A stretch of 39,844 bases of DNA from Bacteroidales bacterium (lineage in GTDB: Bacteria; Bacteroidota; Bacteroidia; Bacteroidales; Muribaculaceae), in the NCBI GenBank assembly GCA_020859755.1, contig JAJBVP010000248.1, forward strand, positions 1-39,844, read 5' to 3'. The position numbers and the translations under genes are program-made. Of the stretch, positions 96 to 6,792 are shown one piece after another; position 1 is the stretch's first letter, and the number at the start of each line of letters is the position of its first letter. The notes below the pieces were generated by a model. The model ran no database searches and was not told where the DNA came from. It saw only the letters and a program-made list of their open reading frames with translations.

Positions 96-130
96 ACGAC
101 AATAAATGTCGTAGTTGGCGGGTATCTTTG
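96..130 (+). promoter_or_regulatory. rtcB promoter: ACGACA-N5-TGTCGT palindrome (96-112) plus -7 box TATCTTTG (123-130)
   Basis: Perfect 6-bp arms; TAnnTTTG box as in Bacteroidetes; no TTTG -33 element at normal spacing; the same layout recurs at 6529-6566. Confidence 0.7.
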
Positions 131-164
131 TGGCGTAAAATAAATATAAAGATGATTGAGAAAG

Positions 165-1334
165 ATGATTAAGAAGGTAGTAATGGGCACAAGGTTGCCT
201 GCCAAGATGTGGCTAGATGAGGTAGAGGACTCGTGTATGTCCCAGATTATCAATCTTGCGTCGTTGCCTTTTGCGTTTAAGCATATAGCTATTATGCCTG
301 ATGCTCATGCTGGTAAGGGAATGCCGAATGGTGGAGTCTTGGCCACCAAGGGGGTGGTTGTTCCTAACGCTGTAGGGGTGGATATAGGCTGCGGTATGTG
401 CGCTGTGAAGACGTCGCTGAAGGCCTCGGAACTTGTGCGTACCGACCTTACGGGGATCATGCGCCATATACGCAAGACCATACCGTTGGGTTTCGACCAT
501 CAGGCCAAGGCTGTTGACGAGTCGCTACTACCGGAAGTCGACTTGTCAACCTTGCCTTTCCTCAAGGACAAAAAAAACGCCATGCTCAGGGAAATCGGTA
601 CTCTTGGCGGCGGCAATCATTTTATCGAGATCCAGCGCGACGTGGCCACCGACGATGTATGGGCTATGATCCACTCGGGAAGCCGTCATGTGGGTTTGAC
701 GGTCGCCAACCACTACAATAAGTTGGCTGAGCATTGGTGTGAGCGGTGGTATGCCGACACGCTCCCGGGGCTGGCTTTTCTCCCGATAGAGACGGAGCTT
801 GGCAAGGATTACATGCGCGAGATGGAGTTTTGCGTGGCTTTGGCGTTGGCCAATCGCAAGGCGATGATGGAAAGGGTGATGGAGGGTTTCCGAGGGGTGC
901 GCCCGGCGGTGGAGTTTGAGCCGATCATCAACATCGCCCACAACTATGCGGCTTGGGAGAATCACTATGGCCACGATGTCATTGTTCATCGGAAGGGTGC
1001 GACCCGGGCCCGGGCCGGGGAGATCGGCATTATACCCGGCTCGATGGGCACGAAGTCGTATATCGTGGAAGGGTTGGGGAATCCCGAGTCGTTCATGAGT
1101 TGCTCCCACGGGGCCGGTCGACGGATGAGTCGCAGCCAGGCTTTCAAGACGTTGTCGCTTGAGCAGGAGTGTGCGGCGATGGATGCCAAGGGGATTATCC
1201 ACGGCATGCGACGTGACGGGCTGGATGAGGCACCGTCGGCCTATAAGGACATAGAGCAGGTGATATCCCTGGAGAGCGACTTGGTGCGACCCTTGGTTGA
1301 GCTTTCGCCGTTGGCCGTGATCAAAGGCGACTAA
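165..1334 (+). CDS. rtcB: RtcB family RNA ligase
   Basis: Motifs PDAHAGKGMPNGGVLAT, GVDIGCGM, GTLGGGNHFIE, HSGSRHVG, SHGAGR. ATG at 165 preferred over the TTG at 156. Confidence 0.93.
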   Translation: MIKKVVMGTRLPAKMWLDEVEDSCMSQIINLASLPFAFKHIAIMPDAHAGKGMPNGGVLATKGVVVPNAVGVDIGCGMCAVKTSLKASELVRTDLTGIMRHIRKTIPLGFDHQAKAVDESLLPEVDLSTLPFLKDKKNAMLREIGTLGGGNHFIEIQRDVATDDVWAMIHSGSRHVGLTVANHYNKLAEHWCERWYADTLPGLAFLPIETELGKDYMREMEFCVALALANRKAMMERVMEGFRGVRPAVEFEPIINIAHNYAAWENHYGHDVIVHRKGATRARAGEIGIIPGSMGTKSYIVEGLGNPESFMSCSHGAGRRMSRSQAFKTLSLEQECAAMDAKGIIHGMRRDGLDEAPSAYKDIEQVISLESDLVRPLVELSPLAVIKGD

Positions 1335-1363
1335 TACCGGGGAGCAGGCTGTTGTAAACATGA

Positions 1364-1406
1364 GAATGTCGATGGCTTAAAATGGGCTGTCGACATTCAT
1401 TTTTTA
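1364..1406 (+). terminator. Rho-independent terminator after rtcB
   Basis: GAATGTCGA...TCGACATTC perfect 9-bp stem followed by ATTTTTTA. Confidence 0.7.
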
Positions 1407-1459
1407 GCGGTGAAAGTGAGGGATAGGGTAAGAGCGTGCGGAGATAAAGAAAAAATTTG

Positions 1460-1467
1460 TAAATTTG
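1460..1467 (+). promoter_or_regulatory. -7 promoter box TAAATTTG upstream of the small ORF/dxs operon
   Basis: Matches TAnnTTTG about 40 nt upstream of ATG 1509. Confidence 0.5.
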
Positions 1468-1508
1468 CGGGTTAATTGGCGTGAAAGGCCAAAAATGAAA
1501 TTAACGTT

Positions 1509-1691
1509 ATGAAAGGTGCATTGATTGCGAGATTTGTTTGCCTGCTGCTGTTGTGGCTATTACTGTGCTACATCCTGCTGAAGACCCGCGACTGGAATTT
1601 CTGGACCTTATTTGTAGTAGTGGCCTCGGGAATTGTGGTGTTTGTGCCTCTTTATAAGAAATATATCCGCGATGGGAAAGGACGCAAGTAA
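1509..1691 (+). CDS. Small two-TM hydrophobic membrane protein
   Basis: 60 aa with two hydrophobic stretches; just downstream of a promoter box; overlaps the dxs start by ~20 bp. Confidence 0.65.
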
Positions 1692-3576
1692 TCTCCTTGA
1701 CACGATACAAAGCCCCGACGACCTACGTCGGTTGAGCGTGGAGCAGTTGCCGCAAGTGTGCCGCGAGCTGCGCCAGGAGCTGATTCGTCAGCTGTCGTCC
1801 AATCCGGGGCATTTGGCCTCGTCGATGGGTGCCGTCGATCTCACGGTGGCTCTACATTATGTGTTCGATACTCCTCGCGACCGTCTGGTGTGGGACGTTG
1901 GACACCAGGCATATTCCCATAAAATCCTTACCGGGCGACGCGAGCAATTCGCTACCCAGCGCACTTTAGGAGGCCTGAGCGGTTTTCCTAACCCAGCAGA
2001 AAGCGAATACGACACTTTCACGGCGGGCCACGCTTCCAACTCTATCTCGGCGGCTCTGGGCATGGCCGTTGCATCGGAGCTCAACCACGATGAGCCGCGT
2101 CGTAACGTGGTGGCAATCATCGGTGACGCTTCGATAAGCGGTGGACTTGCTTTCGAGGGGATCAACAACGCGGCCAATACCCCCAACAACCTGCTTATCA
2201 TCCTCAACGACAACGACATGTCGATTGACCGGAATGTTGGGGCTCTCAACGACTATCTCACGCATATCACGACCTCCAAGGCTTACAACCGCCTACGGTA
2301 CAAGGTGTACCGTTTCTTGCGGAAGTTTAGGTTGATCTCGGAGCGCAAGAGGGGAGTGATTTTGCGATTCAACAATTCGCTGAAGTCGCTCTTGACCCAC
2401 GAGCAGAATCTGTTTGAAGGGTTGAATATCAGGTATTTGGGGCCTTTTGACGGCCATGATGTGGAGCGTATCGTCAGGGTGTTGAAAGACGTGAAGGACA
2501 TGGAAGGCCCTCGCATCCTTCATTTCCGCACGATCAAAGGAAAAGGTTACGGCCCAGCTGAGCGCGACCCGGCCTCGTGGCACGCCCCTGGCAAGTTTGA
2601 TCCCAAGACAGGGAACCGCCTAAGCGGGTCCAACGGCAACCAACCGCCAAAGTATCAGGATGTTTTCGGCGAAACGTTAGTTGAATTGGCTCTAAAGAAT
2701 CCCAAAATCGTGGCTGTAACGGCGGCGATGCCGTCGGGTACCTCGGTGAGCGAGATGCAGGACGCATTGCCCGATCGCACCTTTGACGTGGGGATTTCGG
2801 AGGGGCACGCCGTCACCTTTTCGGGAGGCATGGCCAAGGATGGGCTTCGGCCCTTCTGTGCCATCTACTCGTCGTTTCTCCAGCGAGGTTACGACCATAT
2901 CATCCACGACGTTGCTATTCAGCGACTTCCGGTGACTTTTTGTATTGACCGCGCGGGGCTGGTGGGCGAGGATGGCGTCACCCATCACGGGATGCTCGAC
3001 ATCTGCTACCTGCGTTCCATTCCGGGCATGATTGTTTCGGCTCCTCGCGACGAGGTGATGCTGCGCAACCTGATGTACACGGCTCAGGCCGATGATCATG
3101 GCCCGTTCGCCATACGTTATCCTCGTGGGGCCGGTCATAATCTCGACTGGCTCCAACCGATGCGAGCGCTTCCCATCGGTAAGGGGGAGAAACTCACTGC
3201 AGGCACCGACGTGATGGTAATCTCGGTGGGCACAATGGCTTATGAGACTGCGCAAGCCATTGCGCAAGCCCGTAGGCAGGGCGTGAACGCGTCCCATTAC
3301 GATGCCATTTTCGTCAAGCCGCTCGACGAGGAGATGCTTGAGGAGATTGCCCAGACTAATCGACCGATAGTCACCGTGGAGGACGGGGCCGTGGCCGGTG
3401 GGTTCGGTTCGGCTGTGATGGAATGGCTTCAAGCCCACGGCTACAACCGCGCTGTCACCACCATCGGAATCCCCGACAACTTCGTCACCCACGGCACCGT
3501 GGCTCAATTGAAAAAGATATGCGGAATGGATCCCGATAGTATTGCGCAAGCCATCATAAAAGCCAATGAATCATGA
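1672..3576 (+). CDS. dxs: 1-deoxy-D-xylulose-5-phosphate synthase
   Basis: [66 protein letters not shown] at 1672 (MGKDASNLL) preferred over the upstream GTG. Confidence 0.96.
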
Positions 3577-4904
3577 AGATAGTGATTGTAGGAGCGGGAG
3601 AAGTGGGTAGCCACTTGGCCAAACTTCTTTCCAAGGAGGATCAAGACATAACGCTGGTCGACGCCGACGAGCAGAAGCTTGCGCCGCTCGACAGCAACTA
3701 CAACCTGATGACTGTCACTGGCCAACCCACTTCCTTTGCCGCATTGAAGCAGGCGCGAGTGGAACAGTGTGACCTGTTTATCGCCGTCACGCCCTACGAG
3801 ACTGAAAATATCACATCGTGCGCCATAGCCAAAAGCCTTGGGGCCCACAAAACAGTAGCGCGCATCGACCGCTACGAATTCCTAAAGGAGGAGCACCGCG
3901 GCTTTTTCACTCGCATGGGTGTCAACCACTTGATTTACCCTGAGCTGTTGGCCGCCGAGGAGATCGTCACCTCGTTGCGACGCTCCTGGGTAAGGCATTG
4001 GCTTGAGCTACACGAGGGGGAAATCATATTGGTGGGTGTGAAGGTGCGCGAGGGGGCCAAAATCGTGGGTCAGATGCTTAAGGATCTGGCCATCCAAGCG
4101 GCCATCCACGTTTCGGCCATCAAGCGCAAGCATGAGACGATCATCCCCCGAGGCTACGACCGTATCGAGCCGGGCGACATCGTCTATTTCACCACCACGC
4201 GTGACCATGTGGAAGCTTTGCGCGAGATATGCGGCAAGGTGGATAAGCGCGTGCGGCGAGTGATGGTGATGGGTGGGAGCCGTATCGCTGTGCGGCTATG
4301 CGCCTTGGCTGGAGATGAATTCCGCCTGAAAATCATCGAGCAAAGTCCTGAGAGATGCCGCTGGCTTGCGGAGCTATGTCCCAACGCCGAGATTATCCTG
4401 GGCGACGCTCGCGATAACGAGGTATTGTCGGACGAGGGGATTCGCGACATGGACGCTTTCGTGGCCCTCACCGATCAAAGCGAGACCAACATTTTGGCTT
4501 GTCTCTCGGCCAAGGAGTTGGGCGTTCATAAGACGATTGCCGAGGTTGAGAATATCCAGTTTATCTCGGAGGCCGAGGGCCTTAACATTGGCACAATCAT
4601 CAACAAAAAGCTGCTGGCTTCGTCCAAGATATTCCAGCTTCTGCTTGACGCCGATACCGATTCGTCGAAATGCCTGGCACTGGCCGATGCCGAGGTGGCG
4701 GAAATCGAGGTAAAGCCCCACAGCAAGATAACTCGCGCCCCGGTCAAGGATCTCAATCTGTCGCGCGACATGACCATCGCCGGATTGATTCGCGATGGTC
4801 GGGGGATGCTCGTCGAGGGTAACACCCTTATCCAGCCTGGCGATCACGTGATGGTATTCTGCCTTAGCGGCGCGCTTTCCAAAATCGAAAAATTATTTAA
4901 TTAA
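3573..4904 (+). CDS. trkA: Trk system potassium transport NAD-binding protein TrkA
   Basis: [22 protein letters not shown]; two RCK_N/RCK_C repeats; ATGA overlap with dxs; followed by trkH. Confidence 0.93.
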
Positions 4905-4910
4905 ATTATA

Positions 4911-5002
4911 GTCTTCAGTGTTCAGCAGATACTTTCTGAAGACTGAAAGCTGAAGACAGAAAACTGAAAACTGAAGACTGAAAACTGAAGACTTCAAACT
5001 GA
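4911..5002. repeat. Heptameric tandem array (CTGAARA-type) with an inverted partner segment, upstream of trkH
   Basis: From 4936: CTGAAGA CTGAAAG CTGAAGA CAGAAAA CTGAAAA CTGAAGA CTGAAAA CTGAAGA CTTCAAA in uninterrupted 7-nt register; the 5' part reads TTCAGTG TTCAGCA. Confidence 0.85.
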
Positions 5003-6469
5003 ATGTTCAAGACCAACATAAATCTGCCGATGCTGCTGCGAGTAGTGGGCTGGCTTCTCATGATAGAGGCGGCTTTTATGCTCGTGCCTTTCCTCACGTG
5101 CCTGATTTATGGGGAAAATGACTATGATGCCTTTCTTTTGTCGATTATCATCACCGTTGGGGCAGGCGCGTTGATGACCTTCGGGATCCACCCCGCTCGA
5201 CACGATATGGGCAAGCGTGAAGGCTTCCTGCTGACGGCTTTGGTGTGGGTGATTTTTTCGGCGTTTGGCATGATACCGTTCATGCGGTGTCACACACCCA
5301 TGTCGCTGAGCGACTCCTTTTTTGAGGCTATGTCGGGTTTCACCACTACCGGGGCGTCGATCCTCGAGGATATGACCCATCTAAGCCATGGGATAGTGAT
5401 ATGGCGATGCCTGATGCAGTGGATTGGGGGTATGGGAATCATCCTTTTTACCGTCGCCGTGTTGCCGATGCTCAACTCCTCGGGGGGCATGGCCATGTTT
5501 AACGCCGAGGTCACGGGAATCACACGCGAGAAGCTGCGGCCTCGCGTGAGCCAAACGGCGATGAGTCTGTGGCAACTCTACATCACCCTCACGGTGTTGC
5601 TCATCGCGTTGCTGTGGCTTGGTCCCATGAATTTCTTCGAGGCGGTATGCCACGGGTTTTCGACGATTTCCACCGGAGGCTTCTCTACCGAGAACGATTC
5701 AATCGCGGCGTTCCATTCGGTATATATCGACATTGTGGTCACCATCTTTATGTTCCTGGGGGGCGTCAACTTCGCTCTGCTGGTGAAGGCCGCATCGGGC
5801 AAAATTCGCTCGGCGTGGAGCAACGACGTTCTGCGCACCTATGTGGGGATTATAGGGGTGATGATGGTGCTCTTCGTTATCACAGTCATCGTCAACGGGC
5901 AAGCGCGGACGTGGCAGGATGTGACCATCGCCCCGTTGTTTCAGATCGTGTCGACGATGACCTCCACGGGCTACACTGTCTCCAACTTTGAGAACTGGGG
6001 GGCATTCGTGCTGTCGCTCGTGTTTGGGATGATGTTCTTCGGGGCTTGTGCCGGCTCTACCAGCGGTGGAGCGAAGATCGACCGGCTGATCTTCCTGCAG
6101 AAGTACGTCAAGAACGAGCTACGCAAGTGTGTCCATCCCCGTCAGGTGTATGCGGTGAGAGTAGGGGGCAAGGTGATGCCTACGGAATTGGTAGCCAAGG
6201 TCGTTGCTTTCTTGTGCTTCTACGTCATCTTGATCATGGCTGGGGGCATCGCACTGACGGCGTTGAACATCCCCTTGGTCGACTCTTTCTTCTCCTCCTT
6301 CTCGGCCATCAGCAACACGGGCTTGGGAGCTGGAGTGACCGGCTACGGCTCCTCCTATGAGATAATTCCGGCGGCCGGCAAATGGATACTGTCGTTCTTG
6401 ATGCTCGTTGGTCGTCTCGAGATCTTCACCGTTCTGATTCTCTTCACCTCGGCTTTCTGGAAAAAATAA
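5003..6469 (+). CDS. trkH: TrkH family potassium uptake protein
   Basis: Selectivity-filter-like segments FTTTGAS, STGGFST, TSTGYT, NTGLGAG; multi-TM; adjacent to trkA. Confidence 0.93.
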   Translation: MFKTNINLPMLLRVVGWLLMIEAAFMLVPFLTCLIYGENDYDAFLLSIIITVGAGALMTFGIHPARHDMGKREGFLLTALVWVIFSAFGMIPFMRCHTPMSLSDSFFEAMSGFTTTGASILEDMTHLSHGIVIWRCLMQWIGGMGIILFTVAVLPMLNSSGGMAMFNAEVTGITREKLRPRVSQTAMSLWQLYITLTVLLIALLWLGPMNFFEAVCHGFSTISTGGFSTENDSIAAFHSVYIDIVVTIFMFLGGVNFALLVKAASGKIRSAWSNDVLRTYVGIIGVMMVLFVITVIVNGQARTWQDVTIAPLFQIVSTMTSTGYTVSNFENWGAFVLSLVFGMMFFGACAGSTSGGAKIDRLIFLQKYVKNELRKCVHPRQVYAVRVGGKVMPTELVAKVVAFLCFYVILIMAGGIALTALNIPLVDSFFSSFSAISNTGLGAGVTGYGSSYEIIPAAGKWILSFLMLVGRLEIFTVLILFTSAFWKK

Positions 6470-6489
6470 CGCTGGGATGTCGCCAAAAT

Positions 6490-6516
6490 AATTCCCATAA
6501 AAAGAGGAATTTTTTG
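6490..6516 (+). terminator. Terminator after trkH
   Basis: AATTCC-N10-GGAATT followed by TTTTT. Confidence 0.6.
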
Positions 6517-6528
6517 AAATTTTTTGTG

Positions 6529-6566
6529 CTACGACAAAGGATGTCGTAGTAGGGGGGGTAATTTTG
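6529..6566 (+). promoter_or_regulatory. Palindrome CTACGACA-N5-TGTCGTAG (6529-6549) plus -7 box TAATTTTG (6559-6566)
   Basis: Perfect 8-bp arms; same core (ACGACA-N5-TGTCGT) and near-identical spacing to the -7 box as at the rtcB promoter. Confidence 0.7.
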
Positions 6567-6589: not shown

Positions 6590-6640
6590 AGCGGGATGGT
6601 GCAGTGGCTAGCATTTGAGTCTCATAATCTCCCTTGTCGC
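6590..6640 (+). other. tRNA-Met-like 5' half (acceptor 5' strand, D-arm, CAU anticodon arm), incomplete
   Basis: AGCGGGATGGTGCAGTGGCTAGCATTTGAGTCTCATAATCTCC: D-arm GTGC/GCAT and loop CTCATAA with CAT anticodon; no matching 3' acceptor strand. Confidence 0.6.
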
Positions 6641-6792
6641 CGATGTTCTATGAGAAGGCCGACGATCGCGTGGAGCGTATCGTGAGGCTGGTGGAGCGTT
6701 GCGACGACCGGTTTGTTGCCCAGCTGGCAGTGTACACGCGTCAAAAGATGAATCTGCGCAGTGTGCCCCTGATGCTGGTTGTGGATCTTGCC
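6640..6792 (+). pseudogene. Truncated TROVE-domain (Ro60-like) protein fragment
   Basis: FYEKADDRVERIVRLVERCDDRFVAQLAVYTRQKMNLRSVPLMLVVDLA resembles the conserved N-terminal part of bacterial TROVE proteins; homology stops abruptly on both sides. Confidence 0.7.

Follow-up and report, generated by a model that had tools for sequence, protein, structure and literature searches.

The rtcB promoter and a decayed Ro60 locus

The window, which is the whole stretch of 39,844 nucleotides analyzed here from a genome of the Muribaculaceae, carries near its beginning the forward-strand gene rtcB (positions 165–1334), encoding a 3'-5' RNA ligase of 389 aa (Pfam RtcB PF01139, E = 6e-111); its start is the ATG at 165, in frame with the open reading frame 156–1334. 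The gene is preceded by the palindrome ACGACA-ATAAA-TGTCGT with 6-bp arms (96–112) and by a forward-strand −7 box, TATCTTTG (123–130), whose TTTG lies 13 nt past the 19-bp operator core. A similar module at 6.5 kb consists of the palindrome CTACGACA-AAGGA-TGTCGTAG with 8-bp arms (6529–6549; its inner part, ACGACA-AAGGA-TGTCGT, at 6531–6547) and the forward-strand −7 box TAATTTTG (6559–6566), N10 beyond the operator core. Direct inspection placed both palindromes and both TAnnTTTG boxes where the original prediction had put them, and found no TTTG −33 element 19–21 nt upstream of either box, as had also been claimed.

The 6.5-kb locus had been described as a remnant of Ro60, and tblastn searches with Bacteroidales TROVE proteins bear this out. 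A forward-strand pseudogene fragment of 55 codons (6628–6792) corresponds to residues ~38–92 of a TROVE/Ro60 protein of ~510 residues, the best match being to residues 38–92 of a Prevotella TROVE protein (65% identity, E = 1.5e-17). Downstream of this fragment the window shows no TROVE similarity, and no other TROVE gene was matched in the rest of the window's own genome (G000; assembly of 3,623,977 bp). The intact TROVE gene, missing from the window, is present in relatives: Pfam detects it in G060 and G068, and G028 has it too. In relatives with intact TROVE, arrays of putative YrlA-like RNAs (RF02553 matches with E from 6e-7 to 3e-3, below the gathering score) and tRNA-Met-like elements occupy the interval between the operator and the gene, so that these loci would parallel the Salmonella rsr-yrlBA-rtcBA locus in content, though not in regulator. 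Within the TROVE leaders L121, L122, L124, L083, and L137, ~3–7 units resembling Y RNAs (GCAAGTGCCGTAG...CGCCTTGC) are arrayed, with tRNA-like inserts in some.

In the window, the forward-strand stretch 6590–6642 is suggestive of what is left of the tRNA-Met(CAT)-like element found ahead of TROVE in relatives: its local alignments to the L122, L083, and L121 elements score above nearly all of 2000 shuffles, and it is, though narrowly (38 vs. 37), the window's top-scoring place for the L122 element. An Rfam search of the first 9 kb of the window returned nothing relevant, and ARAGORN found no tRNA in the window. The palindrome at 6.5 kb is probably vestigial. Hence the claim of the same operator at two loci stands as far as the exact copies are concerned, but not as to a working second operon, the distal copy probably being a leftover that precedes a pseudogene.

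The two palindromes could also be a chance coincidence, or duplicated sequence devoid of a regulatory role. They are the sole exact copies of ACGACA-N5-TGTCGT in the 3,623,977-bp assembly, where composition predicts ~0.2 occurrences and P(≥2) is ~0.02 before position is considered. Common ancestry of the window copies by duplication is conceivable, and the exact form is not enriched family-wide. Nevertheless, a genome scan for the palindrome followed by N9 and TAnnTTTG (at most two mismatches) yielded three real matches, namely rtcB, the intergenic region between a WYL gene and an AAA-ATPase gene (at the C270 contig end), and another AAA-ATPase gene, which lies on contig C277, along with two further two-mismatch matches that look like chance. 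The TROVE-remnant module is an N10 version of the N9 arrangement at the other three loci. Retention of the C270 and C277 modules in a congener (G036), and the recurrence across the phylum of equivalent operators that keep this spacing, make an explanation by chance or mere duplication very improbable. The sharing of the module by two loci, as originally proposed, is correct, and the genome holds at least two more modules. One-mismatch copies (GCGACATCCCATGTCGT and a near-identical form, at seven places in G000) were rejected as operators, since the inspected copies belong to a dispersed repeat without a promoter box. The GCGACATCCCATGTCGT repeat is located on contigs C28, C65, C198, C226, C246, and C264.

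A candidate WYL-family regulator

RtcR, a CARF-AAA+-HTH protein, needs sigma-54. It controls RtcB, Ro60, and Y RNAs and is encoded divergently from its targets (PMC7790460). While the targets and the divergent regulator gene of this E. coli and Salmonella system have counterparts here, RtcR/sigma-54 control can be set aside: a PF06956 search of 149 family genomes detected RtcR in none, with a positive E. coli control. Together with the TAnnTTTG boxes, which are of the housekeeping type in Bacteroidota and lie at the fixed spacing, this supports the suggestion that the operator is not a sigma-54 one; a WYL factor would take the place of RtcR.

By homology to WYL genes that are divergent to class-I rtcB in relatives, we traced the candidate G000 regulator to contig C1, outside the window, in which the original prediction had noticed no regulator. 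It is a protein of 345 aa with a GTG start, containing WYL (PF13280, E = 1e-10) and then WCX (PF25583, E = 1.2e-12) domains. Contig C1 ends just upstream of the gene, and synteny with G036 identifies the end of C270 as the adjoining sequence. The joined intergenic region contains TACGACAAAAGATGGCGTA-N9-TAATTTTG, facing a divergent gene for a 709-aa AAA ATPase; this module, ACGACA-AAAGA-TGGCGT-AGTTAAGGGA-TAATTTTG in G000, is found in G036 as well. WYL genes had been guessed to be among those linked to the palindrome, and this linkage confirms the guess. The fourth module (G000 C277; G036 C60), kept in both species, faces another AAA protein, of 557 aa in G036.

Genes of the 709-aa AAA type are divergent to the WYL gene at L109:2833–4962 and also occur in L234, L236, and L240–L242. 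This protein may be an RNA-repair ATPase, because at rtcB loci of class II its homologues are encoded after prfH; its assignment to a defense system was dropped, PADLOC having given generic AAA similarity only (IetA/TRIP13). The protein of the fourth module has AAA and AAA_lid_6 domains (L231:712–2385 on G036 C60 and L232:1–600 on G000 C277).

The AF2 model of an orthologue (L110) reveals an N-terminal winged HTH, undetected by Pfam, that is composed of helices 5–19, 27–42, and 50–61 followed by two wing strands; residues 50–61 form the recognition helix. The domains are modeled confidently and their arrangement is not (pTM 0.50). The best PDB matches of the model are DriD, then PafBC, and then CapW and BrxR, and a sequence profile agrees. 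The recognition helix and the operator may covary. Two unrelated lineages with ACGCC operators have a helix with R55 and E58, a third WYL protein with this pair (G045) has one ACGCC half-site, and the genus of the window has R at the equivalent of position 55 with the operator ACGACA. These very few lineages suggest covariation; the helices were compared by a regular expression that missed some proteins and thus does not amount to a full survey.

Conservation of the operator in the family and phylum

The congener G036 carries the palindrome upstream of its rtcB, as CTACGACA-AAAGG-TGTCGTAG followed by TATCTTTG with the spacing seen in the window. There rtcB directly precedes lipoprotein, MerR, and alaS genes, which is the place of the TROVE remnant in the window; thus the position of rtcB differs between the window (165–1334) and the G036 locus (L084), where an integrase-bearing element lies upstream. 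In other genera of the family, rtcB genes of the same class have CTACGCAA-N5-TTGCGYAG-like palindromes at the corresponding place, and a conserved gene of the WYL type is the divergent neighbor of five of these rtcB genes. A RING_SCO0854-like protein (757–793 aa) repeatedly adjoins rtcB in Bacteroidales (L085:7458–9839, L089:6258–8531, L115, L129, and L138).

The exact ACGACA palindrome fails as a family-wide marker, since its occurrence in 25 of 149 genomes does not exceed that of the reversed control. It is a genus-level variant of the phylum-wide operator CTACGCA-N7-TGCGTAG. The expectation of a family-wide link to RNA repair accordingly holds for equivalents of the palindrome, found across Bacteroidota before rtcB, TROVE, RlaP, Pnk, and PrfH-linked rtcB2, and not for the ACGACA form itself. 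In the same way, the proposal of an RNA-repair regulon operator is supported at the level of the phylum.

With the WYL alignment alone as a blind query, a search of GTDB genomes identified 80 loci across Bacteroidota. When their neighbors were annotated with a chosen set of RNA-repair queries, RtcB, TROVE, RlaP, Pnk, or Thg1 was present on 61 of them; the remaining 19 had no recognized repair gene in the fetched DNA. The pattern TRCGCM-N7-KGCGYA occurs 95 times in the 905 kb of these loci, related sequences included, compared with 0 for the reversed pattern and 0.2 for shuffles, and 75 of the 95 copies adjoin WYL or repair genes. Ten of 46 WYL clusters (80% identity) lack an exact palindrome. 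Within the family, a class A WYL gene is present in 13 of 15 genomes that have class-I RtcB or TROVE, vs. 5 of 134 other genomes (p = 5e-13, uncorrected for phylogeny).

A second, paralogous WYL class lies between the members of class-II rtcB pairs associated with PrfH, has the same operator, and is often accompanied by a homologue of the 709-aa AAA ATPase. In this way the RtcB2-PrfH rRNA-repair operon, absent from the window, shares the operator and a paralogous regulator with the system described here. In a scan of 12 genomes, nearly all annotated sites at promoter spacing were found at RtcB, TROVE, WYL, P298 (a family of ~300-aa proteins described below), or a homologue of the WYL N-terminus, with two sites in G145 left unassigned; sites without promoter spacing were mostly inside unrelated genes. 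In the literature searched, neither the operator nor the regulon is described, and a prior mention of WYL genes as neighbors of RNA repair is possible.

Promoter geometry and the proposed mode of control

The computed geometry of the sites differs between their two sides. Of the 91 sites that face effector genes, 73 have the −7 TTTG starting 13 or 14 nt past the operator, and a TTTG 19–21 nt before TAnnTTTG occurs in none (0/91). In the WYL direction, the commonest operator-to-TTTG distance is 19–21, and TTTG-N19–21-TAnnTTTG with the TTTG overlapping an operator arm is present in 26 of 70 cases. Taking one representative per WYL cluster (80% identity) preserves the picture: effector spacing in 23/30, an effector −33 TTTG in 0/30, and a WYL-side −33 TTTG in 11/34. 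This two-sided geometry is suggestive of a factor that activates toward the effectors and represses its own gene on the WYL side. At some Prevotella and Bacteroidaceae loci the WYL gene itself carries effector-type spacing; therefore, autorepression is not universal.

The known WYL activators provide a template. DriD binds over a poor −35 element, at a constant distance from the −10 box, facing a divergent operon (PMC12340889), and PafBC acts by sigma adaptation, substituting for −35 recognition (PMC11804915). The regulator reported here resembles DriD in its wHTH-WYL-WCX-type architecture, in the poor upstream element, in an operator that covers the −35/−33 region at a fixed distance from the −10/−7 box, and in a divergent promoter beside the regulator gene, whereas its RNA-repair targets and the Bacteroidota sigma factor and promoter are different, and the identity in the structural alignment is 17–18%. 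PafBC, the second-best structural match and likewise a WYL protein, is a mycobacterial heterodimer that uses a −26 motif and controls DNA-damage genes; here, by contrast, one gene encodes the regulator and the palindrome is symmetric. The features matched are the winged HTH, WYL followed by WCX, the fixed-distance site, and the non-optimal −33 region; binding of the WYL protein to the site is inferred.

We thus consider it likely that the palindrome is the operator of the wHTH-WYL-WCX factor and that this factor controls an RNA-repair regulon by DriD-like activation with frequent autorepression. A WYL dimer on the palindrome would sit at a constant distance from the −7 box, in the position where sigma reads the −33 element, and would recruit the housekeeping RNA polymerase to promoters lacking that element, much as DriD and PafBC do. 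At many loci the same binding would repress the regulator gene, as expected because the palindrome contains the WYL gene's own correctly spaced −33 TTTG. In G000 the predicted targets are rtcB, the decayed Ro60/Y-RNA locus, the divergent AAA-ATPase gene beside the regulator, and the second AAA-ATPase gene.

Alternatively, the WYL protein may be a repressor that covers the −33 region of the repair promoters and is released by a ligand, in the manner of BrxR and CapW. Both are WYL regulators of phage-defense operons and are among the structural matches; BrxR is a demonstrated repressor, of BREX, that recognizes inverted repeats spaced by 5 bp and governs the genes next to it (PMC9122601). No fixed −7 spacing is mentioned in the BrxR/CapW literature consulted. 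The overlap of the operator with a proper −33 element on the WYL side is indeed the geometry expected for repression. But a −33 TTTG is missing from 91 of 91 repair-side promoters, which should therefore be weak unaided; that the sites keep a strict spacing to the −7 box, instead of simply overlapping the promoter, fits a contact with polymerase. Furthermore, BrxR and CapW are weaker structural matches than DriD, and the top two matches, DriD and PafBC, are activators. Repression of the repair genes seems unlikely, and the factor is probably a DriD-like, autorepressed activator.

As for the signal, the WYL/WCX part of the activator presumably detects some nucleic acid that arises when RNA is damaged. 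The nearest structural relatives are ssDNA binders, and the Salmonella rsr-yrlBA-rtcBA operon is induced after DNA damage via tRNA cleavage (PMC7790460), so the regulon might respond to DNA damage as in DriD and PafBC, with RNA repair as a part of that response. We find this somewhat unlikely, given that the recognized targets are RNA-repair genes; the lack of DNA-repair genes among the annotated operator neighbors points weakly the same way, the queries having been for RNA repair. A broader model is tentatively conceivable, if on balance doubtful: one WYL family could act as master regulator of RNA repair throughout the Bacteroidota, directly sensing RNA-damage products (tRNA halves, 2',3'-cyclic phosphate ends, cleaved rRNA), activating all classes of repair module (RtcB, RtcB2-PrfH, Pnk-Thg1-RlaP, and Ro60-Y RNA) from −33-less promoters, and repressing its own gene via the opposite face of the palindrome.

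How RNA repair is switched on in bacteria outside the RtcR/sigma-54 group has been an open question. The analysis addresses it with a named candidate regulator and a predicted regulon, together with a defined operator and a geometry by which activation can be told apart from autorepression, in a dominant phylum of the gut that includes genetically tractable Bacteroides species. In the literature searched, the WYL switch had no earlier link to this palindrome, and sensing of damaged RNA becomes directly testable. If the proposed regulation holds, WYL regulators would extend from DNA damage and phage defense to RNA damage, and Ro60/Y RNAs, RtcB, RtcB2-PrfH, and tRNA end-repair enzymes would belong to one transcriptional program, which would also link unannotated genes, namely, those of the two AAA ATPases and the ~300-aa protein, to RNA repair. 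This last family, P298 (MKKDTIFFTADGKGLTSTSANH..., no Pfam match), turns up repeatedly with a promoter-spaced operator, in two cases divergent to the WYL gene (L225:6144–7040, L226:4336–5325, and L267:2554–3495). Finally, standalone HTH-only homologues of the WYL N-terminus, ~137 aa long, are encoded in several genomes, one of them with the operator at promoter spacing (L256:692–1105, G057).
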